DNA of 64,000 bases, from the NCBI GenBank assembly GCA_913058395.1, contig CAJXQI010000001.1:248001-312000 (forward strand), read 5' to 3'. The notes beneath the pieces are model-generated. The model made no database searches, had not been told where the DNA came from, and saw nothing but the letters and a program-made list of their open reading frames with translations. Source of the DNA: an uncultured Colwellia sp. Its GTDB lineage: Bacteria > Pseudomonadota > Gammaproteobacteria > Enterobacterales > Alteromonadaceae. Below, in pieces: positions 31,552 to 53,948 of the stretch. Both the position numbers and the translations under genes were made by a program. Each line of letters begins with the position of its first letter. The stretch's first letter is position 1.

Positions 31552-31589
31552 GATGTTTTAGAATCAATTGTAATAGCTGACATGATGAT

Positions 31590-34416: not shown

Positions 34417-34448
34417 TACTAGAACAGTTAAAAATAAGAGAATTAATA

Positions 34449-38105: not shown

Positions 38106-38119
38106 AGGCGATATGAAAG

Positions 38120-41100
38120 ATGGCATTTGATCAATCAACACGAAATCGCCTGCAAAAATTTGTAAGTGACGCTAGAAAGCTATTAAGTGAAGAGTTTACA
38201 AAACAATTGCAAAATACCTACGGTTTAGATCCTAATACAGGTGTAGTTGCTAGCTTAGATGAGTTACCTGGCTTAAGTCCAAGTCAGAGTCAAACTGCGA
38301 CATTATTGCGTGATACCTTAGATCACTATTTGGCAGCTAGTCATAAATCAGCACCGTATCAAGATAAGTCGCTAGTTATCGCTACACTTGACCGTATTGT
38401 TCGTGAACAAGCTTTTACGGTATTAAATCGATTAGCAGCGCTGCGCATGGCAGAGTCTCGAAACTTTGTAATGGAGTCAATTAGTCAAGGGTATCAATCA
38501 AAAGGTTTCCAACTTTATCAACGTATTGCTGGTAGTAGCTTAGGTGAAACTGGTCAAGCCTATCAGGTATATCTTTTTAGTATGTTTGATGAGCTTAGTT
38601 TAGATTTGGCGGTTTTATTTGATCGTTATTCAAGTCAAGGTCGTTTATTTCCTAATGAATCAATGTTTATTGAGCTGTTAGAGTTAATTAATGATACTGA
38701 ACTTGAACAACTTTGGGGAGAAGATGAAACTATAGGTTGGATATATCAATTTTGGAATGGTAGAGATGAAATTGATAAAATGAGATCAGCCTCTAGAGCT
38801 CCAAGAAGCTCTAGGGAAATGGCTGTTCGCAATCAATTTTTTACACCAAGGTATGTAGTTGAATTTTTGACGGATAATACATTAGGTCGAATTTGGTATG
38901 AAATGACCAAAGGTCAAACTGATTTGGTGAATAATTGTGATTTTCTAGTTCGTCGCCCTAATGAAGAATTTCTCGCTTCAGGCATAGCGTTACCACTTAC
39001 AGAGACTGAACATGAAAAGAGCTTAAGTCAGAGAGAACTGTTACAGCAAAACGTTTTTATCAAACATAGACCATTAAAAGACCCTCGAGATATAAAAATG
39101 CTAGACCCAGCTTGTGGCTCAATGCATTTTGGTCTTTATGCTTTCGATTTATTTGAAAAAATTTATCAAGAAGCATGGGAGCTAGAAGCGTCTAATAGTC
39201 TCGGGAGTTTTGTAAGAGAAAGCGTTAATGGTGAAATGCGAAAAGCCCTACATCAAGATTACGAAAATAAAGAACTGTTTTTAGCTGATATTCCTCGATT
39301 GATTATTGAAAATAATATTCACGGGGTTGATATTGACCCCCGGGCAGCTCAAGTAGCTGGTTTGTCGCTTTGGCTTCGTGCACATAAATCATGGGCGGAT
39401 AATGGTATTAAGCCTGCTCAACGAGCACAAATTAGTCGTTCAAATATAGTTTGCGCAGAGCCGATGCCTGGTGAATCAGGAATGTTAAGTGAGTTTACTA
39501 GCCAGATTCAACCTCCAGTATTAGGGAGCTTAGTAGAAACTGTTTTTAATAAAATGCAATTAGCGGGCGAAGCCGGTTCATTGCTTAAAATTGAACAAGA
39601 AATACAAACTGCAATACATAAAGCCAGAGCGGAATATATAAAAAATGAGCAATGGCAAAAGGGTGATTTGACACTAATTCAGGGGACAGAAGAAAGTGTT
39701 GATGAGCAGTTTTGGCTAAATGTTGAAAGTAGTATATTGGCGGAGCTTGAAAATTACGCTGAGAAGGCCTTAAATAAAGGCTCGATTCAAAGGCGATTAT
39801 TTGCTTCTGATGCAGCTAAAGGGTTTGCTTTTATTGATTTATGCCGAAAGAGGTTTGACGTTGTTGTCATGAACCCACCATTTGGAGATTCTAGTAGGGA
39901 TACCAAAAAATATATTGATAATGTTTATTCTAAATCTAAATCGAATCTTCTAGCTTGCTTCATTGAAAGAGGCATAGAGATGGGAGTAGAAGGAGCCAAG
40001 ATAGGAACGTTAGTGAGTCGTACTGGCTATTACTTGTCAACTTTATCAGGGTTTAGAAAGCATATTCTTGAAAATTCACAGATAGACTGCCATGTCGATT
40101 TGGGATCTAAAGTTCTAGATGCAATGGTAGAAGTTGCAAGTAGTGTTTTCAGTAAAGGTAAAAATAGTGATTCACCGTCGCCATTTATTAGACTACTTGT
40201 AAAAAAAGAAAAAGAAGAGCTTCTTCATCGTGAAGTGAATAGCTTGTCTGATGGCTCTATATCAGGCTGTACATTCATGGTTCCACAGAGCCAATTTGAA
40301 GTTATTGACAGTGCACCATTTATATATTGGATACCAATTAAAGTAGCTAAAAAAATAGCGAAACATGAACCTATTGAACCTAGTAAGGCTGAAATTAGAG
40401 TTGGACTTCAAACTGGTACCGATTTCAGGTTTTTGCGTCTATGGTGGGAAGTACCTTCAGAAAAAATTATGGTGCCTGACGAATCATTAGCTGCACAGGA
40501 ATGTAGAGATGAATGCTTGGAGAAAGTTAATAGTGATGGATCTTGGTGTTACTACTCAAAGATTGACAAGGCATCAGCATTAGCTGCACCTATACATTTA
40601 CTTGTAAAATGGGGGCGGGATGGTAGAGAAATAAAGTCTTATCATGAAGGCAATGGCCACTCTGCTTCGAAGTATGTAATGAGTGAAAGCTTATATTTCA
40701 AACCTGGCTTCAGTTATATGTTAAGAAGTTCCAGATTAGTGCCATACGTTGTTCCTAGAGGAGTAATACCTGCAGCAGGTAGATCACAGATCTACCCTAG
40801 TCAAGGCTTCGAAAATGATGTACTTATTATTGTTTCATCCAACGTCGCAAGTTCAGTTGCAAGGTTTAAAGGGGAAAATTTTGGACAGCCTAAATTTCAA
40901 AACTCCATGGTTGCTTCTATCCCATATAGCGATATAGATGAAGTAGATCTAGAAAAGATTCGAAATAAAGTTAATGAAAAGTTTGTAATCTCGGAGAGTC
41001 AATTTCAACAAGATGAGACTGCAATTCAATTTAATGGTTTTCTTCCTAAACAGGAGGGGGGGGAGGTTAAACTGGATCGTAGTTCTCTTTTGGGAAAAGA

Positions 41101-42193
41101 CGCTGAAATTGCCATCGCTAAGTCTTACGGGTTAGATGAGAGTGAATTATCACTATTAGAGTTAGATATGATGGAAAGCATCAACTCTCCCAAATGGATG
41201 TCTGAAAGTAAGAAGGAGCCTGATTTATCTAGTAAAGATACTAGTTACTCTGAAAATTTATTATCCTGGGCAATTGGTGTCGCTATGGGGCGATTTGACA
41301 TTAATAGCTTCCATAATCTTAAGAAACAAACGTTTGTCGACGATCCTTTTAGGCCTATTCCATCAAAAAGTCCTGCCATGCTAGCTGTAGATAAACCGAA
41401 GTTTCATAAGTTTGATGGCATTTTAGTTGAAGATCCTGCACATAAACACGATATAGTATCTCTGATAAACGATGTATTGAGTGCTATAGATGAAAATTGT
41501 GATTTTGATATAAATAAATGGCTTAAAACAAGTTTTTTTAAAACACATTTAAGAGAATATTCAAAAAGTAGAAGGCAAGCACCTATATATTGGCCACTTC
41601 AAACAGTTAGCGGCTCTTATCGTTTGTGGCTATATTATCCCGAATTATCTAATCAGACGCTATATTCATGCATTAATGACTTTGTAGAACCTAAGCTCCT
41701 GCAAACCACAGATGAATTATCTCAATTAAGGCAGAAGCAAAATAGAACTCCAGATGAAGATAAGGACTTTTCTTCTCTAGTTGCTTTTGAAATAGAGCTA
41801 AAAGATTTGAGAGATGAACTTCTTTTAATAGCGCAATATTGGAAACCTAATCTTAATGACGGGGTTCAAATAACAGCTGCACCACTTTGGAGTCTTTTTC
41901 AACATAAACCTTGGCAAAACAAGTTGAAGAAAACTTGGCAAGAACTTGATAAAGAGAAATATGATTGGTCGCATATGGCATTTAATGTATGGCCAGAACG
42001 AGTCTTAAAAAAATGTCATCAAGATCGTAGTTTTTCTGTTGCTCATGGCGTCGAAAATGATTTATGGCATGAAGTTGAAGTACCAGCCAATCGTGGTAAG
42101 GGTACTAAGTTGGAGTGGCAACCAAAGAAATTGACACCTCAAGAGTACAGCTCATTTGTACAGAAACAACTTGCTCGTTTGAAGGAGTCTTAA
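38120..42193 (+). CDS. pglX: BREX adenine-specific DNA methyltransferase PglX
   Basis: The 1357-residue product is the N6-adenine methyltransferase that marks host DNA for BREX self-recognition. It has RNQFFTPRYVVEFLTDN, SAM-binding motif I DPACGSMHFGLYAFD (about 328) and catalytic motif IV VVMNPPFGD (about 582-590). The C-terminal half is the target-recognition region. It is longer than many type 1 PglX. Within codons 979-982 lies an uninterrupted run of eight G, currently in frame. The start is chosen at the ATG 9 bases after AAAGGCG. The 108 bp after its stop hold no convincing gene. Confidence 0.93.
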   Translation: MAFDQSTRNRLQKFVSDARKLLSEEFTKQLQNTYGLDPNTGVVASLDELPGLSPSQSQTATLLRDTLDHYLAASHKSAPYQDKSLVIATLDRIVREQAFTVLNRLAALRMAESRNFVMESISQGYQSKGFQLYQRIAGSSLGETGQAYQVYLFSMFDELSLDLAVLFDRYSSQGRLFPNESMFIELLELINDTELEQLWGEDETIGWIYQFWNGRDEIDKMRSASRAPRSSREMAVRNQFFTPRYVVEFLTDNTLGRIWYEMTKGQTDLVNNCDFLVRRPNEEFLASGIALPLTETEHEKSLSQRELLQQNVFIKHRPLKDPRDIKMLDPACGSMHFGLYAFDLFEKIYQEAWELEASNSLGSFVRESVNGEMRKALHQDYENKELFLADIPRLIIENNIHGVDIDPRAAQVAGLSLWLRAHKSWADNGIKPAQRAQISRSNIVCAEPMPGESGMLSEFTSQIQPPVLGSLVETVFNKMQLAGEAGSLLKIEQEIQTAIHKARAEYIKNEQWQKGDLTLIQGTEESVDEQFWLNVESSILAELENYAEKALNKGSIQRRLFASDAAKGFAFIDLCRKRFDVVVMNPPFGDSSRDTKKYIDNVYSKSKSNLLACFIERGIEMGVEGAKIGTLVSRTGYYLSTLSGFRKHILENSQIDCHVDLGSKVLDAMVEVASSVFSKGKNSDSPSPFIRLLVKKEKEELLHREVNSLSDGSISGCTFMVPQSQFEVIDSAPFIYWIPIKVAKKIAKHEPIEPSKAEIRVGLQTGTDFRFLRLWWEVPSEKIMVPDESLAAQECRDECLEKVNSDGSWCYYSKIDKASALAAPIHLLVKWGRDGREIKSYHEGNGHSASKYVMSESLYFKPGFSYMLRSSRLVPYVVPRGVIPAAGRSQIYPSQGFENDVLIIVSSNVASSVARFKGENFGQPKFQNSMVASIPYSDIDEVDLEKIRNKVNEKFVISESQFQQDETAIQFNGFLPKQEGGEVKLDRSSLLGKDAEIAIAKSYGLDESELSLLELDMMESINSPKWMSESKKEPDLSSKDTSYSENLLSWAIGVAMGRFDINSFHNLKKQTFVDDPFRPIPSKSPAMLAVDKPKFHKFDGILVEDPAHKHDIVSLINDVLSAIDENCDFDINKWLKTSFFKTHLREYSKSRRQAPIYWPLQTVSGSYRLWLYYPELSNQTLYSCINDFVEPKLLQTTDELSQLRQKQNRTPDEDKDFSSLVAFEIELKDLRDELLLIAQYWKPNLNDGVQITAAPLWSLFQHKPWQNKLKKTWQELDKEKYDWSHMAFNVWPERVLKKCHQDRSFSVAHGVENDLWHEVEVPANRGKGTKLEWQPKKLTPQEYSSFVQKQLARLKES
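41056..41063 (+). repeat. G8 homopolymer within pglX
   Basis: Eight consecutive G in an AT-rich gene encode part of QEGGEV. Gain or loss of one base would truncate PglX about 980 residues in. pglX genes are known to phase-vary in several BREX loci. Confidence 0.9.
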
Positions 42194-42301
42194 ATGAATT
42201 TTCAGCATTTGAGTCTTATTCGTTTCATCAATACTACCGCTATAAAAAAGCCAGGGAACCAGGTGTAATCACAAATATGTGGTTTATGGATTAATAAAAC
42301 T

Positions 42302-44824
42302 ATGCAAATACAAGAATATATAATTAACAAGGTATTTAAACCTAGGCTTAAGCAAAGGGTACTGGTTGTTTATGATGAGAAGCATCAATACCGAAAGCTA
42401 TGCTTGGAATTAGCTTCAGAAGAAGTAACTGTTGTTGACGCATCTGAGTCGAGTATTACCAGTAGGGAGCAAGCACTCAAATGTTTAGCAGGCTTTGGAC
42501 AAGGCGGAAGTAAACTGCTGGTTTACATTCCTAAAGCAGCTCCTTTAACAGATGAAGATAAGCAACAAGACCCATTTAGCTTGTACGCTGCCAGTGGTGA
42601 ATTTTTTCCTCAAGGTGATGGTGATAGTTACTTAAGCTTATGCTTGAAAGCCAAACCTGATCATCAAACACAAATTCGTCAAGCATTTGAGCAAGATGAT
42701 AAGCCAAGCTTTGATGTGATTAATGGTATTGGTGGTGGATTGCAGTGGCCTGCACTTCGCGCATTGTTAAAAGTAGAATCGTCTCCCGAAATTATTAGAG
42801 CACTGATGGTTCCAGAGTCTGAGCAGTTAGCAGCACTTGAGTATAATTTTGCTTGGATAAGTGAAGTTAAAGAATTGTTTCAACAAGTACTTGGTTTTAC
42901 GTTAACCACTCGTGGCCAAAAGTGGAAATCCGTTAGTGATGAGCTTTGGCGATTTATATTGTTTAGCGAGTTTGTTTTTGATTTACCTGAAGCCTTACCT
43001 GACTCCCTTTCTGGTGTACCGAAAGCCAAACACGCAGCACAACCAATAATTGAAGATATTTGTGACGGGCTTCGTCAAGATTTAAGAACACAAGAAATAT
43101 ATATTCAACAAGCTGAAGTTATTGAAAGTGAGAAAGACGGCCTTAACTTAGTTAATTATTGCTCAAACATCATTAATTTAGGTATACGAGATACCTTTCC
43201 ATTTGAAGAGCGAACTTTTCTAAATGCAGCAATTAAAAATGTAGAAGATGACGACTTTGATAGCCTAACAGAGATACTCTCAAGACATACCAATTCTGTT
43301 TGGACAAATAGAGGTGAAAACCAAACTCAGTGGGATTTAGTATCAGCAGCAAAGAATTTAATTGTATCTTGTACAGATTTACTAAGAGAGCTACCGGGAA
43401 ACTGTGGCAGTCAGGATGCGCTAGTTGAGTTCTACCTAACTCACTTGAGAGAAGCGGACAGGTTACAACGTGAGTTTGAACAAGCTGTTACGGATTACTG
43501 GGATGAGAACAGCTTACTTAAATCAGTAATAGATAAAGCTCGAAATCAATATTGGAAATTAGCCGAAAAAGTACAAACCTTATTTACCAAACAGCTTTCA
43601 ACTCATGGTTGGCCACCACAGGGAAGAACCAATAACTCAAATGTGTTTGATGAATTTGTAGCACCTAAGCTTAGCCAGAGTGGGCAGAGAGTTGCGTACT
43701 TAATGGTTGATGCTCTGCGCTACGAGTTAGGGTTAGAGCTTGAGAAGCAGCTTAAAGATGACTTTGAAATTACTCTAAAACCAGCATTCTCTTGTCTGCC
43801 GAGTATAACCTTAGTAGGTATGGCTAGCTTGTTGCCTGGTGCCAGAGAACAATTAGAGTTAAAAAATAAAGATGATAAATTGGTACCTGTTTTAAATGGG
43901 CAAACAGTTGCAACAGTTGACCAGCGTATGGCTATTTTCGAGAACCGATATGGTAGTCGTTTTGCAGAAATGGCCGTTGATCGTTTTGTCGATAATGCTC
44001 ATGTTTTTGATTCAAATGTAGAGCTTGCTGTTTTACGCAGTGTAGAAATAGATACACAATTCGAAAATACACCTAAAACAGCTCCAAGTGTTATCTTACG
44101 GGAACTAAAAAACCTTCGTGTTGCTATTAGTATGCTTCAAAAACAAGGTTTCAATCAGGTTGTGATTGCAACAGATCATGGCTTCTTTATGAATAGACAA
44201 GCAGGTGCTGGCGATGATTGCCCTAAGCCTGCAGGCAATTGGTATTTAACCCATGAACGGATTGCGTTAGGCAGTGGCAACGCTAATGAACACCATTTTG
44301 TTATACCTGCTGATCAGCTTGGCATTAAAGGTGATTATAGCTCTGTGGCAGGACCTAAGACCATGGCTGCATACCGTAAAGGTAAGCTTTACTTTCATGG
44401 GGGGGCATCACTGCAAGAATGTGTAGTTCCAGTAATGGAATTGAAGCTTAAGCCTCAAGCGCAACCTTCTGTGCAAAGTGAAGTTATTTCTCTTAGCTAT
44501 AAAAAAGGCGCTACGTCGATAACATCTCGTCGCCCAATAGTGGAAGTTTCCGTTAGTTCAGATGACATGTTTAGTGAAGAAAAGAGTTTCGAGATTTTGC
44601 TAGAAGCTCAAAAGTTTCGTTCAACTGAAGTTGTTGGTGAAGCAAAGATTGGTGGCCCGGTTAATGCGGCTACTAGAACAATTACCCTACAACCAGGCGA
44701 TAGCCAGAAAGTGACGATAATTATGGATGATGACTTCAACGGTAGTTTTGTGATTAAAGCACTTAACCCTAATACATTAGCAGAACACGCTAAATTGAAA
44801 CTTAAAACAGACTATGTGGTGTAA
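42302..44824 (+). CDS. pglZ: BREX alkaline-phosphatase-superfamily protein PglZ
   Basis: The 840-residue product has the PglZ domain: VAYLMVDALRYELGLELEKQL (metal-binding Asp, about 468), CLPSITLVGMASLLPG (possible Thr nucleophile) and VVIATDHGFFMNRQAG (about 620, metal Asp and His). The N-terminus (KQRVLVVYDEKHQYRKLC) matches type 1 PglZ. It is the proposed hub of the BREX complex. A G7 run lies at 44,399-44,405 in the FHGGASLQE codons. It ends 3 bp before brxL. Confidence 0.93.
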   Translation: MQIQEYIINKVFKPRLKQRVLVVYDEKHQYRKLCLELASEEVTVVDASESSITSREQALKCLAGFGQGGSKLLVYIPKAAPLTDEDKQQDPFSLYAASGEFFPQGDGDSYLSLCLKAKPDHQTQIRQAFEQDDKPSFDVINGIGGGLQWPALRALLKVESSPEIIRALMVPESEQLAALEYNFAWISEVKELFQQVLGFTLTTRGQKWKSVSDELWRFILFSEFVFDLPEALPDSLSGVPKAKHAAQPIIEDICDGLRQDLRTQEIYIQQAEVIESEKDGLNLVNYCSNIINLGIRDTFPFEERTFLNAAIKNVEDDDFDSLTEILSRHTNSVWTNRGENQTQWDLVSAAKNLIVSCTDLLRELPGNCGSQDALVEFYLTHLREADRLQREFEQAVTDYWDENSLLKSVIDKARNQYWKLAEKVQTLFTKQLSTHGWPPQGRTNNSNVFDEFVAPKLSQSGQRVAYLMVDALRYELGLELEKQLKDDFEITLKPAFSCLPSITLVGMASLLPGAREQLELKNKDDKLVPVLNGQTVATVDQRMAIFENRYGSRFAEMAVDRFVDNAHVFDSNVELAVLRSVEIDTQFENTPKTAPSVILRELKNLRVAISMLQKQGFNQVVIATDHGFFMNRQAGAGDDCPKPAGNWYLTHERIALGSGNANEHHFVIPADQLGIKGDYSSVAGPKTMAAYRKGKLYFHGGASLQECVVPVMELKLKPQAQPSVQSEVISLSYKKGATSITSRRPIVEVSVSSDDMFSEEKSFEILLEAQKFRSTEVVGEAKIGGPVNAATRTITLQPGDSQKVTIIMDDDFNGSFVIKALNPNTLAEHAKLKLKTDYVV

Positions 44825-44827
44825 TTT

Positions 44828-46909
44828 ATGGATGCATTAGACGAAAAGTTAATTGAAGGGTTCGACGGAAAAGTTGTTCGTAAAGATCTTTTACATCGCA
44901 TTAAAAAAGGCACCAATGTACCTACCTTTGTATTGGAATTTTTATTAGCTCGCTTTTGTGCAAGTGATGATGACGATGAAATACAGGAAGGATTAAGTGC
45001 TGTTCTAGATACACTAAATGACAACTATGTTCGCCCTGATGAAGCCAATGCCGCTCAATCAAAAGTAGCAACAAAAGGACGACATAAATTTATTGATAAA
45101 GTGCATGTTCGTTATGTAGAAAAAGAAAAACGCCATTGGGCAAGTTTAGAAAACTTTAACTCTCAACGTATTGCTATAGGTGAGAAGTTTTATAAAAACA
45201 ATGACCGTTTACTTGAAGGTGGTATTTGGGCTGAAGTGACTCTATGCCATAACGAAATTGAAGAAGATGATTATGCTTTTTATATTGAAGATTTACGGCC
45301 AATTCAGTTAAGTCGATTTGATTATGAGGCTTATTGTGAAAACCGCGCTGGTTATAGTCGTGATGATTGGTTAGATATTGTGATGCGCTCTGTAGGTTTA
45401 GAGCCCAGTAAGCTAACTAAACGCGTTAAGTTTCATTTTTTAGCCAGGTTGGCATCCCTTGTTGAAGCAAATTATAACTTTATTGAGTTAGGCCCTAGGG
45501 GGACAGGTAAGTCATATTTTTATAGTGAATTTTCACCTTACTCAACATTAATATCTGGTGGTCAAACAAGTAGTGCTTCACTCTTCTACAACAATGCGCG
45601 AAGAAAAGTTGGCTTGGTTGGATATTGGGACACAATTGCCTTCGATGAAGTTGGCAATATGCGAGTTAAAGACCCTGATACCATTCAAATCATGAAAGAC
45701 TTTATGGCTAATGGGCGATTCTCTAGAGGAGCGGAGGTTATTGCTGATGCCAGTATGACCTTTATTGGAAATTTAGATTTAGGTGTTGAGCAAGTGGTTA
45801 ACTCGACAGAGTATGATTTATTTCAGCCGTTACCAAAAGAGTTTGATCTGGCTGTCATGGATCGTTTCTGCATGTATATGCCTGGCTGGGAAATGCCCAA
45901 AAACAGCTCTGAGTTCTTAACTAAAAACTACGGTTTTATTACTGATTATTTAGCGGAAGCTTTTCATTACCAATTAAAGAATACAAACCGATATGAGGAT
46001 GTTAGCAAGCGCCTTAAATTAGGACGTTGTGTTGAAGGGCGAGATGAAAAGGGTATCAAGAAAACCGTAGCAGCGTTTCTAAAGATGTTGCATCCACATG
46101 GTAGCTGTTCTGATAGTGAGTTTGAAGAATATGTTTCTTATGCTGTAGAAGGACGTAGACGGGTTAAAGAGCAAATGAATAAGCGTAAGCCAGATGATGA
46201 GTTTGCAAATATTCGTTTATCTTATTTTAACGCGAATAACCAAGAAATTTTTGTTGATTGTCCTGAAACTATTGGTGTTGAAGCGACATTAAACCCTATT
46301 AAACCAGGTGTAAGTAGTGATATTCCTGATGATGGTGAAAGCCATAAACCTGAAGAAGCGGTTGCGCAGCCAGCTAAAGTTGAAAGTTCAACTCAAAAAG
46401 AGGCTAATACTTCCCAGATTGACGTACCTGAATCAATTAAACTTAAAGAGCAACACTTCAAGATAACCTATGACTCTACCGGGTACAGTTATGAATCTTT
46501 AATTACTCCGTACTTAGCTAAAGCCAAAGCCGTTGTAATCGAAGATCCTTATATAAGAGCAAAACATCAGCTCAACAACTTTGTTCGTTTCTGTGAGGCT
46601 GTATTAAAACAACCAACAGTGAAGAAAATTACCTTAGTTACTTCATACGATGATCAAACCAATATTCAAGAAATGGCAGAAGCACTTAAAGATCTCCAAC
46701 AAAGCTTGCTAGAACTTGATGTTGAGTTAGATATTCAAGTCAATGAAAACTTACATGACCGTGAAATACGCATTGATAATGGTTGGACAGTGAAGATTGG
46801 CCGTGGCTTAGACTTCTTCCAAAAACCTGATAGCTGGTTTGGTGTAGGGGTGAATGATTTAAGCTTACGTAAGTGCTTAGAGACTAGTATTGATATATTT
46901 AAGGCGTAA
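44828..46909 (+). CDS. brxL: BREX AAA+ protein BrxL with an MIT_C (PLD-like) C-terminus in place of the Lon-like domain
   Basis: The 693-residue product begins with the BrxL N-terminal region (LDEKLIEGFDGKVVRKDLLHRIKKG). The AAA+ core has Walker A ELGPRGTGKSYFY (about 220-232) and Walker B WDTIAFDEVGN (about 272-282). After about residue 485 there is a low-complexity linker (SHKPEEAVAQPAKVESSTQKE). A C-terminal domain (554-693) resembles the MIT_C domain of human MITD1: VVIEDPYIRAKHQLNNFVRF, LHDREIRIDNGWTVKIGRGL and SLRKCLETSIDIF. Normal BrxL has a Lon-related C-terminus; no Lon Ser-Lys motif is seen. H643xR645x4D650 resembles a PLD HxKx4D motif. Confidence 0.85.
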   Translation: MDALDEKLIEGFDGKVVRKDLLHRIKKGTNVPTFVLEFLLARFCASDDDDEIQEGLSAVLDTLNDNYVRPDEANAAQSKVATKGRHKFIDKVHVRYVEKEKRHWASLENFNSQRIAIGEKFYKNNDRLLEGGIWAEVTLCHNEIEEDDYAFYIEDLRPIQLSRFDYEAYCENRAGYSRDDWLDIVMRSVGLEPSKLTKRVKFHFLARLASLVEANYNFIELGPRGTGKSYFYSEFSPYSTLISGGQTSSASLFYNNARRKVGLVGYWDTIAFDEVGNMRVKDPDTIQIMKDFMANGRFSRGAEVIADASMTFIGNLDLGVEQVVNSTEYDLFQPLPKEFDLAVMDRFCMYMPGWEMPKNSSEFLTKNYGFITDYLAEAFHYQLKNTNRYEDVSKRLKLGRCVEGRDEKGIKKTVAAFLKMLHPHGSCSDSEFEEYVSYAVEGRRRVKEQMNKRKPDDEFANIRLSYFNANNQEIFVDCPETIGVEATLNPIKPGVSSDIPDDGESHKPEEAVAQPAKVESSTQKEANTSQIDVPESIKLKEQHFKITYDSTGYSYESLITPYLAKAKAVVIEDPYIRAKHQLNNFVRFCEAVLKQPTVKKITLVTSYDDQTNIQEMAEALKDLQQSLLELDVELDIQVNENLHDREIRIDNGWTVKIGRGLDFFQKPDSWFGVGVNDLSLRKCLETSIDIFKA

Positions 46910-46917
46910 ACCATCAT

Positions 46918-48237
46918 ATGGATAATAAATTTTTCCTAGAAACTATGACAGTTTCAAATTATCGCTGCTTTAATCATTTGAAGTTAGATTTTTCACCAGG
47001 TTTTAATGTACTTATAGGTGACAATGGTAGCGGTAAGTCTTCAATAATGAATGCTTTAGCTACTTCTCTTGGTACTTGGTTTTTAGGGTTGCCTGAAGTT
47101 AAAAGTAAAGATATTCATGAAGAGGAAGTTAGAGTTGTTCGAAAGCGTGAAGGCGATATTGTCACCTTCCAAAAAAAAGGCGAATGCGTTCTTTCTTCAA
47201 AAGGTAATATCTTTGGTAATTCAATATCTTGGACTAGGACAAAGCATAGTGGTGGTACTACTTATAAAAAAGCCGAAAACTTAATTGAAAAATCTGAGTT
47301 TATTAACCAGCGGTTGACATCTTCAAGTCCTGTTACGTTACCTATTATTTCATATTACGGTACAGGACGTTTATGGGGGCAGCGTAATTTAGGTGTAGTT
47401 AAGAAAACCAAAGTACCAGAAGAGGCTATGAAAGCTAGTCGTTATACAGGTTATTTGAAAGCACTAGATCCAGCATCTAATGAGGTTGTTTTAAAAAGGT
47501 GGATCAGTGAACTCACCAAAGCATCATTTAATGAAGGGAGAATATTTGAATCGCTCACCGTTGTATATGAAGCAATAGCAAAAAATGTAGAAGGTGCTAA
47601 AAGAGTATTTTGGGGGGCTCAAGACGATGATTTACTCATCGAGTTTGAAACTGGAGATATTGTACCAATGTACTTACTTAGTGATGGTCAAAGGAATATA
47701 TGCGCAACTATTGGTGATATTGCAATGCGCTGTGTACAGCTTAATCCTCATATGGGATTTGAAGCTGTTTCAGAAACTCCTGGTGTAGTTTTAATCGATG
47801 AAATTGATCTTCATTTACACCCTAAATGGCAACGAAAAATTGTAACATCGCTTAAAAACACGTTTAAAAACATTCAGTTTATAGCTAGTACTCATTCCCC
47901 ATTCATTATTCAGTCACTTCGAAAGAGTGAATTAATTTCACTAAACCCAGAAAGTGTTGAAAATACATTTATGAATGAAGAGCTCGGTATAGAAGACACA
48001 ATCGAGCGATTTATGGGGCTGGACAATGTTATTAGAAGCGAAATGTTTAATAATACAGTAGCTGTAGGGAAGGAGATTTTTGAGCTTGAAGATAAACTAC
48101 GAGATATTAATTCAGAATCTCCAGAGTATAGTCAACTACAAGATATGATAGATGTTTTGAGAAGGAAGTTGACCAAAGATTCGGCCTACATTTCAGACAA
48201 CCCATTAATAACCGCATTTCTTGAGGCTAAACTATGA
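46918..48237 (+). CDS. ptuA: AAA/SMC-like ATPase, Septu PtuA-type
   Basis: The 439-residue product has an ABC/SMC-like ATPase head. Walker A is FNVLIGDNGSGKSSIMNAL (about 29-47), the signature region LLSDGQRNICATIGDIA (about 252), and Walker B VVLIDEIDLHLHPKWQ with the H-loop FIASTHSPFIIQSL. There is only a short insert between the ATPase halves, as in PtuA. Its stop overlaps the HNH gene start (ATGA), and it starts 8 bp after brxL. It is therefore likely expressed with BREX. Confidence 0.82.
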   Translation: MDNKFFLETMTVSNYRCFNHLKLDFSPGFNVLIGDNGSGKSSIMNALATSLGTWFLGLPEVKSKDIHEEEVRVVRKREGDIVTFQKKGECVLSSKGNIFGNSISWTRTKHSGGTTYKKAENLIEKSEFINQRLTSSSPVTLPIISYYGTGRLWGQRNLGVVKKTKVPEEAMKASRYTGYLKALDPASNEVVLKRWISELTKASFNEGRIFESLTVVYEAIAKNVEGAKRVFWGAQDDDLLIEFETGDIVPMYLLSDGQRNICATIGDIAMRCVQLNPHMGFEAVSETPGVVLIDEIDLHLHPKWQRKIVTSLKNTFKNIQFIASTHSPFIIQSLRKSELISLNPESVENTFMNEELGIEDTIERFMGLDNVIRSEMFNNTVAVGKEIFELEDKLRDINSESPEYSQLQDMIDVLRRKLTKDSAYISDNPLITAFLEAKL

Positions 48238-48902
48238 GGCCAGTAACGAGGAATAGCTGGCCTTTAAAGCCAAATGGAGATAGAAAGACGTTTGCAGTAA
48301 GTAACTATAAAGGATTCTTTAAAGATTTAGTTATTAACTTTGGTTTTTATTGTAGTTACTGTGAAAGGCCTGACAGTTTAGATATTGAACACGTTATTCC
48401 ACAGTCGTCTCCGGCGGGTCAACATTTAGTAGTTGATTGGAATAACTTACTGTTAGGTTGCCCTAGCTGTAATAGAGACCATAAAAGCAATATAAATAAT
48501 ACTAGAAATGGCTATGTGTGGCCGGATGAAGTTGACTCATTTAGTCATTATGAATATTTTAGTTCAGGTGATTTAAAGGTGAAATCGACATTAGATAATG
48601 CTGATAAGACTAAAGCTCAAGCGACTATAGATCTTTGTGGTTTAGCACCTCCGCCTAAAAGTAACGCTAATCAAAGTAAAGATTTCTTATGGCAGCAGAG
48701 AATGAAAGTATGGGTTGTAGCTGAAAAACTTAAAGCTGATTATATTGCAGGGAATACGACGGTTGGTAATATTGTAACTTTCTCTGAAATGTCTGGATTT
48801 TGGTCTATTTGGATTACTGTTTTTAGCGGCCATGATGACGTTATTAATGCTATAAGTGATGCATATAACGGTACGAAGTCCGATTATTGTACTCCACCTT
48901 AA
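48234..48902 (+). CDS. ptuB: HNH endonuclease, Septu PtuB-type
   Basis: The 222-residue product has an HNH nuclease domain (about 37-85): zinc pair FYCSYCERPDS, catalytic DIEHVIPQSS, WNNLLLGCPSCNRDHKSN. In Septu the ATPase PtuA and HNH protein PtuB form a complex that cleaves phage DNA. The 4-bp overlap with the upstream ATPase gene is typical. Length and the C-terminal helical part fit PtuB, though related ATPase-HNH pairs exist under other names. Confidence 0.82.
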   Translation: MRPVTRNSWPLKPNGDRKTFAVSNYKGFFKDLVINFGFYCSYCERPDSLDIEHVIPQSSPAGQHLVVDWNNLLLGCPSCNRDHKSNINNTRNGYVWPDEVDSFSHYEYFSSGDLKVKSTLDNADKTKAQATIDLCGLAPPPKSNANQSKDFLWQQRMKVWVVAEKLKADYIAGNTTVGNIVTFSEMSGFWSIWITVFSGHDDVINAISDAYNGTKSDYCTPP

Positions 48903-48913
48903 TATGCAATCTA

Positions 48914-49216
48914 TTATAACCAATGCTCTGGTATCGTTAATTCAAATGAGTTTGCTGCATACTTGAGCATTGATAGTATTTCTTTATGCTTCGCTTGGTC
49001 GTAAGGCTGATTATCCTTTCGCTGCTCAATAATAGATTGTAATAGTGGTAAGTTGAACATGCCTAACTTATAAAAGTTGTTCCAGCTAGGCTGACCAAAT
49101 AAATTATATATAACCTCTGTACCATCTCGCTCACTAGCAAGTCGTTTCTCACCAGTAATTAATGTCTCTGCCTTTTCAGCTTCATCCCGATTTTCATACG
49201 AATTAAGTAATTTCAT
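48914..49216 (-). CDS. Uncharacterised 100-residue protein
   Basis: The small, charged protein contains DEAEKAETLITGEKRLASERDG and ends FELTIPEHWL. It is convergent with ptuB, with 11 bp between stops. I do not recognise a family. The AT-rich upstream region could supply a promoter; coding likelihood is moderate. Confidence 0.5.
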   Translation of the reverse strand: MKLLNSYENRDEAEKAETLITGEKRLASERDGTEVIYNLFGQPSWNNFYKLGMFNLPLLQSIIEQRKDNQPYDQAKHKEILSMLKYAANSFELTIPEHWL

Positions 49217-49417
49217 AGTAATAAATTAATTTATTACTAGTGTAACTTAATACTATCGCCGAGTCGTCAGGTCAGGCGAACGATTTAACAAGTAGTACAA
49301 ATATATATAAGAATTTTGAGTCCATAAAATAAAATTTTTTGGGTCAAATTAAACTAACAATTAATTGAAGCTAGTTACTAACTGGCTAAATTGAAAATTA
49401 ATTTATTCAACATTTCT

Positions 49418-49450
49418 AACGCCGGTCAGGTTCCTGTCTGGCGTTTTTGT
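49418..49450 (+). terminator. Terminator-like hairpin just before the integrase gene
   Basis: AACGCC and GGCGTT flank an inner CAGG/CCTG stem and a T-rich run follows. It lies immediately upstream of the integrase ribosome-binding site (GGAG at 49,455). It would stop transcription from upstream or act as an attenuator of the integrase gene. Confidence 0.65.
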
Positions 49451-49464
49451 TTTTGGAGATTCTT

Positions 49465-50673
49465 ATGTACCCATCAAGATTTAAATTTAATAAACGTCAA
49501 ATTGATAGCCTCCCTCCCACACCTGAAAATAGCCGTAGTAGAGAAACTGAATATTCAGATGAGGCCTGCTCAGGTCTACGAATAATAGTTAATCGTCAAA
49601 ATCGCAAGCGCTTTTTATTTCGTTATACCTTTTTGAAAAAGAAGAAGAGTTTAATGATTGGAGAATTTGGTCCTATTGACGTTAATACAGCACGCATGAA
49701 AGCTTCTGAATTTAAACGAATGCTTGCAGATGATATAGACCCTAAACAACAGCGTGATGATGCTAGAGCTGTCTTGAATTTCTATGAATTTTCAGAGCAA
49801 CATTACATGCCTTATGCCAAATCAAATAAGCGTAGTTATAAAAATGATCAGTCTATTCTTGATCTTCACATGTACCCATTGTGGCGTGACAAACGATTAA
49901 CAGAGATCACTAAACACGATATTCAACGCTTTCTTGATAAAGTGGCTGAAAACCTTATGCCAGGTAGTGTTAATAGAATGCTTAGCTTAATTCATCGAAT
50001 GTTGAAACTAGCCAATGAATGGAATTTTACACCGCAGTCTTTTGCTAACCCTGCAGCTGGTATTCGCAAGTTAAAAGAGAATAATCATCGAGAACGATAC
50101 CTATCAAAAGAAGAGTTAGAGAGTTTCATTGCCGCTTGTGACGCTGAGCCATCTAGAACACCAGCTAATGCACTGAAACTAGCCGTTCTCTCAGGTATGC
50201 GCATTGGTGAGATAATTTCGTCTACCTGGAAGAACTTAAATATAACAAGCGAGCAAGGTAGTTTATTTTTGCCCCACACAAAGTCGGGGTTTTCCAGAAA
50301 TGTGATATTAAATCAAGAAGCCTTAAAAGTGATTTTAGAGCAAAAGCAATTTCGTGAACGTGGTAATCCTTATATCTTTCCTGGAAAGGTTGCGGGACAG
50401 CATATTCACAATCCTAGAAAGGCATTTCTTCGTATTAAAGAGTCTGTAGGTGGGCTAGAGGGGTTAAGGATACATGATTTACGCCATAGTTTTGCTAGCT
50501 TGCTGATCAATATGGGAAATAGTGAGAATGGTCGTGGTGCTAGCTTATATGAAATACAGCATTTGCTCGGGCATAAAAACCCACAAACAACAACCCGCTA
50601 TGCTCATGTATCAACTAACAGACTACGAGAAGTATCGAGTAATATGGAATTGCTTCTTAATTCTGGTAAGTAA
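49465..50673 (+). CDS. P4-type tyrosine integrase of the island
   Basis: The product is about 402 residues from the ATG following GGAGATTCTT. It has a short DUF4102-like N-terminal arm-binding region (IDSLPPTPENSR, RIIVNRQNRKRFLFRY, MIGEFGPIDVNTARMKA), a SAM-like core-binding domain, and the catalytic residues Arg246 (SGMRIGEI), His337-x-x-Arg340 (HDLRHSF), the later His in LLGHKNPQ and nucleophile Tyr379 (TTTRYAHV). It is the only integrase in the island, about 3.2 kb from the right junction, and is the likely enzyme for the anticodon-loop insertion. Confidence 0.93.
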   Translation: MYPSRFKFNKRQIDSLPPTPENSRSRETEYSDEACSGLRIIVNRQNRKRFLFRYTFLKKKKSLMIGEFGPIDVNTARMKASEFKRMLADDIDPKQQRDDARAVLNFYEFSEQHYMPYAKSNKRSYKNDQSILDLHMYPLWRDKRLTEITKHDIQRFLDKVAENLMPGSVNRMLSLIHRMLKLANEWNFTPQSFANPAAGIRKLKENNHRERYLSKEELESFIAACDAEPSRTPANALKLAVLSGMRIGEIISSTWKNLNITSEQGSLFLPHTKSGFSRNVILNQEALKVILEQKQFRERGNPYIFPGKVAGQHIHNPRKAFLRIKESVGGLEGLRIHDLRHSFASLLINMGNSENGRGASLYEIQHLLGHKNPQTTTRYAHVSTNRLREVSSNMELLLNSGK

Positions 50674-50732
50674 CTCAACTAAGTAAATAAAGCACTTTCA
50701 ACCTCATATTAAATTACTGGTTATAACAATTT

Positions 50733-50768
50733 AAGCCGATCCTTCTTCATTGAGGGATCGGCTTTTTA
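50733..50768 (+). terminator. Terminator after the integrase gene
   Basis: AGCCGATCC / GGATCGGCT form the stem with a T-run after it. Confidence 0.9.
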
Positions 50769-50784
50769 TTTTAGGAGAAGCAAT

Positions 50785-51162
50785 ATGAAGATGATTACTG
50801 ATTGGCCAGGTGATGTTGATCTTTCATTAGCTGAAGATGAAAAGGATAAAGTCATATCCCTGCTAATTGAGCCATTTGGAAATGAAACTGAAGCTAAGAC
50901 ATTTTGGCAGAGTTATGGGAATTCACTTTTTATAGCAAGTACTAATGACACTGTTAATACTCTTTTATCACTGCCTGAGCAGCTGAAGGAGCAAATTAAT
51001 CACTCACTAACTTATCCTGAGTTTGTAGAGAAAGTACCAAGCTCTAGTAGCGGACAAAGCTTAATACTCACTTTATCCATAATGAATGATGAAGGTGGTG
51101 GTAACTATATTTTATTTTTACCTGAATGCCCGTTAATTGAATTGATCAATAAGGGGTTTTAA
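50785..51162 (+). CDS. Uncharacterised 125-residue island protein
   Basis: The acidic, soluble protein starts MKMITDWPGDVDLSLAEDEKD, with AGGAG before the ATG. It contains a Ser-rich stretch (KVPSSSSGQSL). No family is recognised. It overlaps the next gene by one base (TAATG), so it is part of a small operon with the DUF1232 protein and the 145-residue protein. Confidence 0.6.
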   Translation: MKMITDWPGDVDLSLAEDEKDKVISLLIEPFGNETEAKTFWQSYGNSLFIASTNDTVNTLLSLPEQLKEQINHSLTYPEFVEKVPSSSSGQSLILTLSIMNDEGGGNYILFLPECPLIELINKGF

Positions 51163-51464
51163 TGGGTGTAAATATTGAAGACTTTTGGAAAAAAATAAAG
51201 TCATTGAAAAATAGTAACCGTCTAATTATTACAGCATTAACTTTATTCTACGTTATGTGTGACGGAGACATACCTATTTGGGTTAAAGCGCTATGTTCCA
51301 GCGCATTAATATACTTCATTAATCCTTGGGATCCTTTAGGTCCTGATCCAATAATTTATGCTGATGATATCGCCATTCTCGCAGCAGCCCTAAAAAGCAT
51401 AAGTAAACACATTAAATCGAGCCATAAGGCGCAAGCTAAACGGCATATTAAGAAAAAATCTTAG
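51162..51464 (+). CDS. YkvA/DUF1232 family small membrane-associated protein
   Basis: The 100-residue product has the DUF1232 pattern CDGDIPIWVKALCSSALIYFINPWDPLGPDPIIYADDIAILAAAL, in which IPxWVK, YxxxPxDxxPD-like and YxDDIAIL are the key elements. DUF1232 proteins are small, weakly hydrophobic and of unknown function; they often accompany toxin or stress loci. It is translationally coupled to the preceding gene. Confidence 0.78.
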   Translation: MGVNIEDFWKKIKSLKNSNRLIITALTLFYVMCDGDIPIWVKALCSSALIYFINPWDPLGPDPIIYADDIAILAAALKSISKHIKSSHKAQAKRHIKKKS

Positions 51465-51473
51465 GAAAAGCAT

Positions 51474-51911
51474 ATGACTAACAAAACAAAAGAAAACCCA
51501 AAGAAGAGCGACTCTGTTACAACTTCAAAAATACTGATGACAGCTAAAGCACCAAAATTAAACCCTAAGAATGGTGGCTTTATACATTTTGAAATATTCG
51601 TAATAAATAAGGAACTCAGTTTAAAGATGACCGCTAATGATGGTGGTGGGTTGCATTCGAAAGAAGATATTCCCATTCAAAAACTGCTAACAGTGTTGGA
51701 TGAAATAAAATCACCTTCAACGCACTTTAACTCTTCAATTTTCAAAACACTTTTCACCTCTGGTAGCGCGAATAACGGATCTTTCATGGCATCGATAGCA
51801 AGAGAGCTTTCTCTTATCGCTGCAGTACCCACAAAAATGTATTCACATCAGTTGAGTGTCAATTACGCTGAAAGCAAAAAGAAGCTACTAGCTATAGCTG
51901 GTAAATCTTAG
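51474..51911 (+). CDS. Uncharacterised 145-residue island protein
   Basis: A basic N-terminal tail (KTKENPKKSDSVTTSK) precedes an alpha/beta body containing GGFIHFEIFVINKELSLKMTANDGGG. No family is recognised. It lies 9 bp after the DUF1232 gene, in the same operon. Confidence 0.55.
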   Translation: MTNKTKENPKKSDSVTTSKILMTAKAPKLNPKNGGFIHFEIFVINKELSLKMTANDGGGLHSKEDIPIQKLLTVLDEIKSPSTHFNSSIFKTLFTSGSANNGSFMASIARELSLIAAVPTKMYSHQLSVNYAESKKKLLAIAGKS

Positions 51912-51967
51912 TTCATAGTAATTAACAGCACTACCTTTCTACTTAACAAGCTCCAAGGATAAACATA

Positions 51968-52384
51968 ATGAAATTGACTTTTTCTAGTCAAGTATCAACC
52001 TTTATTGTGTCTGATACATTATTAGCAATCATTCAAAAAGAAATTGAAAATAAACCACATGCTGTAAACTCAGTTATTCTTAACTTTAGATCACCAAGTT
52101 ATAGCCCTGAAGAAGGTGGCTACCATCCTGTTGAAATACGTTTAGTTAAATCAGATAACTTATGGTTGTTTGATTACATAACGGATTTTACTTACGTAGG
52201 TTTTTCACCAATGGCAGAACTAACAAAAGAGATAGACTTTTGTTTTGATACTGGCGATGCTTATCACTTATATATCGGTAAAATAAGTATTGAAGAAGGT
52301 AAAAACTTATTCAAACTGTGGCAATCTAACTTTGTTAGCTATTGGCAAATGAAAGTATTTGATGTTGAAATTACTATTGATTAA
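51968..52384 (+). CDS. DUF2787 family protein
   Basis: The 138-residue product matches DUF2787: AVNSVILNFRSPSYSPEEGGYHPVEIRL, WLFDYITDFTYVG, ELTKEIDFCFD and LFKLWQSNFVSYW. The family is common on integrative elements of Vibrio, Shewanella and relatives; its function is unknown. It is the last gene before a strong terminator. Confidence 0.82.
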   Translation: MKLTFSSQVSTFIVSDTLLAIIQKEIENKPHAVNSVILNFRSPSYSPEEGGYHPVEIRLVKSDNLWLFDYITDFTYVGFSPMAELTKEIDFCFDTGDAYHLYIGKISIEEGKNLFKLWQSNFVSYWQMKVFDVEITID

Positions 52385-52413
52385 ACAAGTCTGGGTTTAC
52401 ATAAAAGATTAAC

Positions 52414-52452
52414 AAGAGCACTAAGCCAATCGGTTTAGTGCTCTTTTTTTTC
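52414..52452 (+). terminator. Terminator after the DUF2787 gene
   Basis: AAGAGCACTAA / TTTAGTGCTCTT form the stem, followed by eight or more T. Confidence 0.92.
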
Positions 52453-52591
52453 ACTTAACTAAAGCAATCGGATTGGTAGTCGGTTGCGCTATGGCTAAAT
52501 TAACCAGTTCATTTACCTATAAGATTTTGGCTATGTTTGATTGTAAAATAGTAAGTTTAAAATTACTTACTCGACGACTTGTCGCTCCGGC

Positions 52592-52981
52592 TCATATCCG
52601 GTGATTTGAACTGGATTTTTCCTCAATCCAGTTCAATATATCCGCTCTAACCCAAGCAACAGCTCTAATACCCAGTTGAATGGGCTGAGGGAATTTATTC
52701 TTGTTTTGTAGAGAATAAATTGAAGATCTAGATAATGAAGTCATCTTGATAACTTCTTTTATTCTCAATAAATCAGTAGGTTTGGAGTTATCTTTAGGTT
52801 GTAGTATTTCAACCGTTGGCTTTACCGTTTCTTCGCGCTGTTTTTCGAATGCCGTAGTTAGATGTAGCTTAAGGTGTTCAATATGCTTTAAGGTTAAATT
52901 AAGCTCATCTCTAGTATTTTTTGTAGATAGGGCGAGTTGCTCTAATTGGTTATCAATTAATTTGAATTCTAGCGGTGTCAT
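52592..52981 (-). CDS. AlpA-family DNA-binding regulator / excisionase-like protein
   Basis: The 129-residue product has a coiled-coil N-terminus (about 10-50) and a C-terminal AlpA/MerR-like winged helix (LLRIKEVIKMTSLSRSSIYSLQNKNKFPQPIQLGIRAVAWVRADILNWI, about 71-119 in parts). AlpA proteins control integrase expression and excision of P4-like elements. Its position between the accessory operon and the attachment region, divergent from the junction, fits a recombination-directionality or regulatory role. Confidence 0.83.
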   Translation of the reverse strand: MTPLEFKLIDNQLEQLALSTKNTRDELNLTLKHIEHLKLHLTTAFEKQREETVKPTVEILQPKDNSKPTDLLRIKEVIKMTSLSRSSIYSLQNKNKFPQPIQLGIRAVAWVRADILNWIEEKSSSNHRI

Positions 52982-53364
52982 GGTGCAAACCTGATTATAA
53001 TAAACTTGCTAATAATTATAGGAAAATAGGTTTAAGAAAAGCATATTACTCGTATGAGTAAAACTAGTTTTACAAAGTGATTTTAGTCCGGCTTAAGCTA
53101 TGCCTTCTGCTCTCTATCTTCGTCATAAATGCTAAAAAGAGTATTTAAAATAGAATTAAACTGTCACTGTTATAACTGTTTTGAAAAATATCATCCGGTA
53201 ATTTAACTCTGATTGATACTGAGTTAGACCAGAATTGGACCGGAACAGTAAAAAATTGAAAATTATTTTGATATAAAATCGGTGTGACTTGGTGATTTAT
53301 AGAGTGAAATGATGAGTAACCAAATAGAGAATTAGCTCTGAGTTTAAGAACTATAGAAGAGAGA
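52982..53364. other. Non-coding region upstream of alpA, with two palindromes
   Basis: No convincing gene is present. TTACTCGTATGAGTAA (53,046-53,061) is a near-perfect palindrome and AAAACTAGTTTT (53,060-53,071) a perfect one. They lie 65-90 bp before the alpA start and may be operators. The first includes TATGAGT, which also occurs in the attachment core. Confidence 0.45.
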
Positions 53365-53694
53365 TGGTGGCCCCTCTGTGATTTGAACACAGGACCTACC
53401 GATTCGGGTTATCCAATACTTTCGTAAAGGCCTGGACTATATCATCACCCCCGACTAAAACGAATTTAGGCGGTAGGGTGTCGGACGCTAATGATGTATT
53501 ACACAGCAAGTTCGTGCTGCACCATCTAGTCTCTGAACCTTCCTAGTACGCTTACTAGGCTTGGCTGCTGATTGGCAAGTTTCTAATGAAACGTAGCTTT
53601 CCAGCAATTCATCCGATTTTTCCATATAGCATTACTGCTATAGGTCACAACTACTTTATGAGTCGGGCGCTCTAACCAACTGAGCTAAGGGGCC
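53365..53694 (-). tRNA. Complete tRNA-Ile2(CAU) gene interrupted by a group I intron
   Basis: The exons are 53,694-53,658 (37 nt, ending at the anticodon CAU) and 53,404-53,365 (40 nt, with encoded CCA). Joined, they read as a standard cloverleaf: acceptor GGCCCCU/AGGGGCC, D arm GCUC/GAGC, anticodon stem CCGA/UCGG with loop CUCAUAA, T arm CUGUG-UUCAAAU-CACAG. The GGCCCCU acceptor stem (C4-G69, C5-G68) favours the lysidine-modified tRNA-Ile2 over elongator tRNA-Met, which has the same anticodon. It differs from the split host tRNA at two positions in the 5' half and throughout the T arm, so it is a separate gene brought by the island. Confidence 0.88.
53405..53657 (-). ncRNA. Group I (IC3-like) self-splicing intron in the tRNA anticodon loop, 253 nt
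   Basis: The intron follows the U of anticodon CAU and ends in G, as group I introns require. Its internal guide GUGA can pair with the exon end UCAU (U.G at the splice site). Core segments match the Azoarcus tRNA-Ile(CAU) intron as I recall it: CAGCCAAGC (J3/4-P4), GAAGGU-CAGAGACUAGA (P3/P7 region) and AUAGUCCAGG...CGAAAGU (P7-P8/P9). AGACUA and UAGUC form the P7 guanosine site. It has no open reading frame and so no homing endonuclease. Confidence 0.88.
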
Positions 53695-53828
53695 ATCTCT
53701 TTCTACTTATATGCTTCTTTGTTAAAAGGGCATATACATAAAACAACTCTTCGAGTTTGTCTTAGGTATATGTGCTCTTACCTAATTTTTCGCTATCTTA
53801 CTTCTTCCGGTCCAACCTTTCCAACCTT
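53695..53828. other. Spacer between the two tRNA 5' halves, with a long hairpin
   Basis: A long imperfect hairpin (53,731-53,772) has arms CATATAC...ACAACTC and GAGTTTGT...GTATATG around a TTC loop. CCAACCTTT occurs twice in tandem (53,812-53,829) next to the attachment core and could be an integrase arm site. No strong promoter for the inner tRNA is evident here. Confidence 0.55.
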
Positions 53829-53836
53829 TTATGAGT
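53829..53836. repeat. attR core TTATGAGT
   Basis: This is identical to the left core at 13,258-13,265 and lies in the tRNA anticodon loop. The flanks differ (TCGG-type stem outside, AACCTT inside), as expected of attachment-site halves. Confidence 0.8.
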
Positions 53837-53867
53837 CGGATGCTCTAACCAACTGAGCTAAGGGGCC
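53829..53867 (-). pseudogene. Stranded 5' half of host tRNA-Ile2(CAU) gene (island right junction)
   Basis: On the minus strand this reads GGCCCCUUAGCUCAG... through D arm and anticodon CAUAA, then diverges into AAGGTTGG. Joined to the 3' half at 13,220-13,265 it makes a perfect tRNA, so this was the host gene before insertion. It differs from the inner copy at positions 26 and 27 (AU instead of GC). Confidence 0.9.
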
Positions 53868-53919: not shown

Positions 53920-53948
53920 AGTATAAGCATTTTTTATTTTGTTGTCAC
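53920..53948 (-). promoter_or_regulatory. Promoter of the host tRNA-Ile2 gene, now reading into the island
   Basis: On the minus strand GTGACA (-35) and TATACT (-10) are 17 bases apart. They are followed by a GC-rich discriminator (CGCCGC) typical of stringently controlled stable-RNA promoters. The start would be about 45 bases before the host tRNA 5' half; the intact intron-containing tRNA lies about 170 bases further on. Confidence 0.65.

Follow-up and report, generated by a model that had tools for sequence, protein, structure and literature searches.

The DNA examined here (the window) is a stretch of 64,000 nucleotides from an uncultured Colwellia sp. (assembly GCA_913058395.1, contig CAJXQI010000001.1, positions 248,001 to 312,000), in which a genomic island interrupts the host gene for tRNA-Ile2(CAU) and carries, close to its right end, a second and complete tRNA-Ile2 gene containing a group I intron (Table 1). 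The host gene is broken in the anticodon loop, and reading of both junctions showed that its two parts have only the 8-bp core ACTCATAA in common; attP and attB in the window likewise have just 8 bp in common. Neither junction of the island rebuilds a tRNA. At attR the sequence runs on as AAGGTTGG and not as TCGG, and the classical configuration, in which attP restores the target tRNA, is not found. An anticodon-loop split of the host tRNA-Ile2(CAU) without restoration at either junction had been proposed in an initial inspection of the window (the original prediction), and is confirmed by both junction sequences.

The complete gene, hereafter the replacement gene, lies inside the right end of the island, at a distance of 173 nt from where the host 5' part starts. 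Its intron matches the Rfam group I model RF00028 over the full model (95.3 bits, E 2.7e-23), indicating a conserved catalytic fold, and joining of the exons yields a 77-nt tRNA with a CAT anticodon and an Ile2-type sequence, to which ARAGORN gives the label tRNA-Met(cat). When applied to the unspliced window, ARAGORN detected no tRNA, so that genes of this kind can be missed. The Rfam match and the ARAGORN call on the joined exons bear out the prediction of a complete tRNA-Ile2 inside the right end, containing a group I intron of 253 nt. Because the intron starts with AA, the 8-bp core ACTCATAA is still whole in the replacement gene, and the 3' stem arm TCGG alone is displaced.

Table 1. Features of the island, its junctions and its replacement tRNA gene (positions in the window).
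Feature	Position	Strand	Basis
Replacement tRNA-Ile2, complete gene	53365..53694	-	sequence
Exon 1 of the replacement gene, ending with the CAT anticodon	53658..53694	-	sequence
Group I intron, 253 nt, between tRNA positions 36 and 37	53405..53657	-	Rfam RF00028, covariation, boundaries
Exon 2 of the replacement gene	53365..53404	-	sequence
attR: host tRNA-Ile2 5' part, ending ACTCATAA, then AAGG in place of TCGG	53829..53867	-	sequence
attL: host tRNA-Ile2 3' part, starting with the core ACTCATAA	13220..13265	-	sequence
Island, ~40.6 kb	13266..53828	.	bounded by the two tRNA halves; intact Ile2 at the right flank in four same-genus relatives
Promoter-like site (host tRNA gene; GTGACA, 17-nt spacer, TATACT), preceding both the host 5' part and the replacement	53920..53948	-	consensus scan; recurs at 12/12 loci
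Tyrosine integrase, 408 aa	49447..50673	+	Pfam Phage_integrase (E 6.8e-27), Arm-DNA-bind_3
AlpA-like regulator	52592..52981	-	Pfam Phage_AlpA
BREX genes BrxA, BrxB, BrxC, PglX, PglZ, BrxL (cargo)	33066..46909	+	PADLOC, Pfam
PtuA/PtuB-like pair (cargo)	46918..48902	+	PADLOC; NCBIfam matches under NCBIfam cut-offs

No further intact tRNA-Ile2 gene was found by pattern scans for the 5' and 3' ends of the gene across the source assembly, a draft of 43 contigs. With at most one mismatch, the 5'-end pattern occurred at 10 places, two of them perfect (the two gene copies) and eight with one mismatch, of which one is a tRNA-Arg gene of this genome and the other seven were not checked singly; the 3'-end pattern, at the same tolerance, matched the two gene copies and nothing else. 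The proposal that the island ruins the host Ile2 and supplies a replacement was thus borne out, no other Ile2 gene having been found in the assembly. Empty sites were recognised in four relatives of the same genus (L051, L052, L065, L068), each with a single intact and intronless Ile2 gene adjoining a homologue of the right-flank gene of the window (72–74% over about 1.56 kb), and with no intron-bearing tandem pair; on the left flank, stretches of up to about 3 kb from these relatives matched over at most about 90 bp around the tRNA 3' end. Neither of the outcomes named in the original prediction as speaking against island cargo, further intact Ile2 genes in the assembly or a tandem pair in relatives, was encountered. 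In another genome of the genus (G182), the gene, flanked on the right as in the window, is occupied by a different island.

The arrangement recurs well beyond the window. Intron-bearing Ile2 genes were found in six genomes of a family sample of 295, and a pattern for Ile2 5' halves without the normal following T matched eight places in seven genomes of this sample, namely the same six intron genes, the split half of the window and a split half in genome G012. A pattern for the exon-intron junction matched 16 loci in the genome_contigs collection, of which four were chance matches (L085, L086, L090, L092) and 12 were real: two in Vibrio, four in Alteromonas, and the others in Shewanella, Colwellia, Rheinheimera, Paraglaciecola, a Pseudomonadales metagenome-assembled genome (MAG) and Endobugula. 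Three of the 12 belong to genomes already present in the family scan (G094, G180, G203), so that the full set, all from marine gammaproteobacteria, comprises 15 tRNA-Ile2 genes with an intron. Twelve of them follow a split host 5' half of the same strand at a distance of 157–184 nt. That the window has 14 such counterparts, 11 of them behind a split host half, argues that the arrangement did not arise by chance. No host 5' half was recognisable in Endobugula (L095), and in A. arenosi and A. aquimaris the lone Ile2 gene itself carries the intron.

Since these 15 genes were gathered through a search for intron genes, the proportion of 12 in 15 says nothing on the frequency of introns in cargo tRNAs. 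In a less biased sample, the T-loop junction pattern matched one of 394 genomes of the order, and that genome has the intron. Within the family sample, introns occur in four of five cargo Ile2 genes versus two of 287 other Ile2-bearing genomes (p 2.5e-7), the latter figure being the 292 genomes with an Ile2 match minus the five with cargo, not inspected one by one as Ile2, and the count being such that intronless cargo behind TCG-keeping junctions could escape detection. Searches for the Ile2 intron in E. coli genomes and for the intron pattern in the viral_contigs collection gave no result, and the Ile2 query matched plasmids over about 40 nt of exon only.

Judged by eye, the host halves at the 12 loci are broken in the T-loop in nine cases (GTTC/TTAT, the stroke marking the break; L073, L074, L080, L082, L083, L084, L087, L093 and L094) and in the anticodon arm in three (the window, L081 and L089). 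Intron-bearing tRNAs do recur on islands (12 loci, the window included), a question that the original prediction had raised for anticodon-loop islands, though mostly at T-loop breaks. Among the T-loop islands, that of G182 alone was read at both ends, and its attL begins TTCAAGTC. An integrase of the int-B family is present in seven of the nine T-loop loci; the flank of L094 is too short to judge, and L084 has no int-B relative, its two downstream open reading frames (ORFs) of at least 100 amino acids (aa) being without an integrase domain. The island of G180 possesses its own integrase of 452 aa beside an attL that begins in the anticodon loop, and A. arenosi (G094) has another of 443 aa. The four integrase types are at most distantly alike, with 19–30% identity where BLAST aligns them (24% over 421 aa between the window and G180). 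Despite these different integrases, the spliced exons of the window are identical to those of G182 and Colwellia, which indicates that the tRNA module has moved between island types. Integrase scans of genome_contigs and of viral_contigs, as well as a search for the T-loop integrase in plasmids, gave no result, and no left end could be located for the G133 island.

Elsewhere in the family, islands at the anticodon loop of Ile2 were found in G012, G094, G130 and G180. The G130 integrase is the best match of the window integrase in the 295 genomes (54%) and also sits in Ile2; there, the Ile2 gene is intact and intronless, and a displaced 3' half about 8.5 kb off starts at the same core, as expected of classical restoration. 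Replacement may have derived from restoration, to judge from this kinship. In G012 (L062 1503-1700, L129), a 6.4-kb insertion in Ile2 comes with a replacement tRNA-Ile2 that has no intron; its six ORFs of at least 120 aa showed no integrase domain, and the insertion is perhaps a decayed island.

Target genes other than Ile2 were also encountered. A search by the T-loop integrase, likewise less biased than one by the intron gene, gave six of the 295 genomes, two of them those of known Ile2 islands; three genomes have intron-bearing cargo, one has intronless cargo, in one no cargo tRNA was seen, and in one (G105) no target was found. In G146, tRNA-Arg(UCU) is split at GTTC/TTAT, and the complete tRNA-Arg(UCU) that comes next contains, at position 36/37, a group I intron of 231 nt (76 bits); in G100, tRNA-Arg(CCU) is split and the replacement is intronless. 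A relative of the T-loop integrase splits tRNA-Pro(GGG) in G071 (L159 9839, by eye), where no replacement tRNA was seen nearby; tRNA-Pro(GGG) may be a dispensable tRNA. The window genome itself contains a second group I intron (219 nt, 74 bits) in a tRNA-Arg(UCU) gene (G000:C6, L163 9553-10061, + strand), which lies 213 nt behind a truncated tRNA, read as the host Arg gene, downstream of tRNA-Pro(TGG). It would be a second replacement with an intron in this genome. The 12 ORFs of at least 100 aa within about 10 kb downstream of it showed no integrase domain, and the far end of this insertion was not located. The Arg introns share 82% identity with one another and 47–56% with the Ile2 introns, and a search for the Arg intron in plasmids gave no result.

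The position of the cargo gene relative to the host promoter is shared among the Ile2 loci. All 12 loci have a promoter-like site (at least 10 of 12 consensus matches with a 17-nt spacer) in the 120 nt that precede the host half, whereas between the host half and the cargo such a site occurs at one of the 12 (Rheinheimera); when the same stretches were base-shuffled, 109 of 3600 upstream versions and 161 of 3600 intervening ones contained such a site. The upstream sites stem from related host genes and hence are not independent, the point being that the cargo is without a site of that quality. The difference between the two stretches suggests that the cargo tRNA is probably transcribed from the captured host promoter. 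The intronless replacements of G012 and G100 follow the same promoter pattern.

The 15 Ile2 introns are 238–269 nt long, all begin with AA and end with G, and all join to a 77-nt CAT tRNA. The group I splice-site signature, a U before the 5' splice site and a G at the 3' end of the intron, is present in 15 of 15 as CTCAT and the final G. Their consensus fold comprises 61 pairs, 34 changed on both sides and 27 invariant, with 901 of 915 cells paired across the 15 introns. On this strong covariation, the tRNA-Ile2 introns are judged to be under selection as RNA. The intron tree consists of two clades, with A. arenosi and A. aquimaris in one and the other 13 in the second (100/99).

An intron-bearing tRNA-Ile2-like gene, unannotated in the record, was also observed within a tRNA cluster of Klebsiella phage Muenster (MT708547.1, L116 2990-3312), and three more records of Klebsiella phages align with 99% of the query at ~70% identity. 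A 2014 review describes introns in phages as then known from protein genes only (PMC3984707).

Taken as a whole, these results are explained best, and in our view quite probably, by a replacement of the host tRNA. The tyrosine integrase would recombine the 8-bp attP core with the anticodon loop of the only tRNA-Ile2 gene of the host; as neither junction rebuilds the gene, the cell would then depend on the tRNA-Ile2 of the island, this tRNA being presumably essential. The cargo gene, located just inside the junction that retains the host tRNA promoter, would probably be transcribed from it after insertion, and the group I intron at position 36/37 would splice from the RNA to leave a normal tRNA. 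Several observations weigh against this account: taken alone, the promoter match of the window is no better than those of dinucleotide shuffles; at the two Arg(UCU) loci, the 120 nt before the host half contain no such site, although in G146, where a tRNA-Pro gene precedes the host half, a shared promoter may lie further upstream; and the draft state of the assembly may leave room for a second Ile2 gene.

The purpose of the intron is the least certain part of this account. Tentatively, its most likely role would be to take the intact anticodon-loop attachment site out of the only Ile2 gene of the cell, and thus to guard that gene against the island's own integrase or against rival anticodon-loop islands. 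Such a role is in line with the finding that no Ile2 gene with the intact order CCGA-CTCATAA-TCGG was found in the window genome, with the other anticodon-loop islands that target Ile2 in the family, with the enrichment of introns in cargo and with the presence of a very different intron in a second tRNA. It is about equally likely, and hence an idea to be held just as tentatively, that the intron was already present in a captured tRNA-Ile2 gene and was afterwards passed from island to island together with the tRNA module, without any role in integration.

Several findings count against a guarding role, and most of these are what an intron carried along with its tRNA would lead one to expect. 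At nine of the 12 loci the break in the host gene lies in the T-loop, off the intron site; a related intron-bearing tRNA-Ile2 occurs in Klebsiella phages, in the tRNA cluster of large genomes; and one replacement Ile2 (G012) is intronless, as is the replacement Arg-CCU of G100. In addition, the 8-bp core persists in the intron-bearing gene, and archaeal tRNA genes with introns still serve as integration sites (PMC8371274). Simple carriage is further favoured by the 13 cargo introns outside A. arenosi and A. aquimaris forming one clade, by the identity of the spliced exons of the window with those of two T-loop islands, which makes the module mobile between island types, and by the anticodon loop being, in any case, a frequent place for tRNA introns in bacteria and elsewhere (PMC4390854). 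It is less easily reconciled with the rarity of the intron in the other Ile2-bearing family genomes (2/287) when compared with cargo genes (4/5), or with the very different intron of the cargo tRNA-Arg(UCU) (47–56% identity), which would imply that a tRNA was captured with its intron at least twice.

The original prediction had been more specific, holding that the intron parts the two target stem halves, CCGA and TCGG, and that the replacement gene is thereby immune to the island's own integrase. The intron does part the two arms, TCGG being displaced, yet it leaves the 8-bp core and the 5' arm whole, so that such immunity is only inferred. Immunity would fit the anticodon-loop islands but not most of the cases found; as a general reason for the intron it was rejected, given the T-loop majority (9/12) and the T-arm left of the break, which in L082, L084 and L094 is the same in host half and cargo (by eye). 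Four findings go beyond the original prediction: the placement of the cargo behind the host promoter, its recurrence on islands with different integrases, the related integrase of G130 with classical restoration, and the intron-bearing tRNA-Arg replacement in the window genome. A wider proposal is that cargo tRNAs gained group I introns at least twice, in tRNA-Ile2 and tRNA-Arg(UCU), because the intron hides the anticodon-loop site in DNA and leaves the mature tRNA unchanged, closing the site to the own integrase and to rival islands alike in what would be superinfection exclusion by a ribozyme; this we regard as rather unlikely. The invariant AA at the intron start was not used as evidence in this connection, since shared descent or P1/P10 pairing may explain it, and the Klebsiella phage intron starts with CG.

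Improbable, in our estimate, is an origin of the arrangement in attP itself, with the 5' exon-intron boundary as the attachment site, integration restoring an intron-bearing host gene and complete cargo copies arising later. Such an origin would suit A. arenosi (G094), whose only Ile2 gene consists of a host-like promoter region and 5' half, the intron and the 3' exon, and whose 443-aa integrase adjoins a displaced 3' half starting at the core; it would also agree with the AA at the start of the introns, by which the core CTCATAA is kept, and with the intron-bearing attP proposed for archaeal introns (Sugahara et al. 2012, cited in PMC8371274). However, this is a single locus whose intron falls in the other clade (100/99), and the cargo gene of the window comes with a full 5' exon of its own, the overlap between attP and attB amounting to 8 bp. 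That the host had two tRNA-Ile2 genes in tandem, the island striking the intronless one and the intron gene being host property, is scarcely credible: the two genes do lie 173 nt apart at the right junction, but the idea was rejected on the empty sites of four same-genus relatives, which have a single intronless gene at the matched right flank, and the intron gene recurs just inside islands of other genera and is found as a lone gene in two A. arenosi-type genomes only.

Replacement of a host tRNA by an integrating element is a principle known from phages. tRNA-dependent lysogeny has been described for Fionnbharth, LeBron, Mollymur and other actinobacteriophages, with tRNA-Ile2 among the targets; as here, a tyrosine integrase acts on a short core in a host tRNA gene, the tRNA is unrestored at both junctions, the element carries its own tRNA, and related tRNA-rebuilding elements exist alongside (PMC10865867). 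The present elements differ in being gammaproteobacterial islands in which no phage genes were recognised, and in a cargo tRNA that contains a group I intron and lies behind the host tRNA promoter; the host would presumably depend on this tRNA. Classical tRNA-targeting islands (Islander, PMC4383910; here G130) have in common with them a tyrosine integrase at an anticodon-loop site and a displaced 3' fragment at the far end, but here attP does not restore the tRNA, whose place is taken by a separate complete gene.

Bacterial group I introns in tRNA genes, such as those in tRNA-Ile of Azoarcus and others, likewise occupy the anticodon loop of a tRNA-Ile gene (PMC3984707), whereas those reported here reside on mobile islands within a replacement gene; neither islands nor integrases are mentioned in the portions of that source at hand. 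The idea of the intron as a guard follows the logic of a hypothesis on archaeal introns as protection (Randau and Soll, cited in PMC4390854), which differs in concerning archaeal host genes with protein-spliced introns and not the cargo of mobile elements. No prior description of an intron-bearing tRNA on an island was found among open-licence PMC papers; as far as these show, the new parts would be the cargo-tRNA intron, its gene's placement behind the host promoter and the repeated occurrence on different islands.

The replacement of tRNAs by mobile elements is thereby extended from actinobacteriophages to marine gammaproteobacterial islands with several integrases, here including one with phage defence, and the capture of a host promoter at the junction is suggested as the way in which a cargo tRNA is switched on. 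These islands also offer a bacterial setting for testing tRNA introns as a guard against integration, since, within a single family, one target gene shows classical, intron-bearing and intronless solutions.

Among the other proteins of the window's island, one of 424 aa (window 27665-28939) has a partial match only to the DNA polymerase A family, and no phage structural families were found among the island proteins scanned, which were a subset of ORFs, PHROGs not being searched. In A. arenosi (G094), an island adjoins the lone intron-bearing Ile2 gene (L076 6587-17830), alongside a displaced 3' half that opens with the core, and another 3' fragment, of T-loop type, lies at G094:C12:272901; these fragments are apparently the outcome of nested insertions. 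In Paraglaciecola (G180), two Ile2 3' fragments lie 3.7 kb apart (L127 2530 and 6222), which suggests more than one insertion at the same gene.
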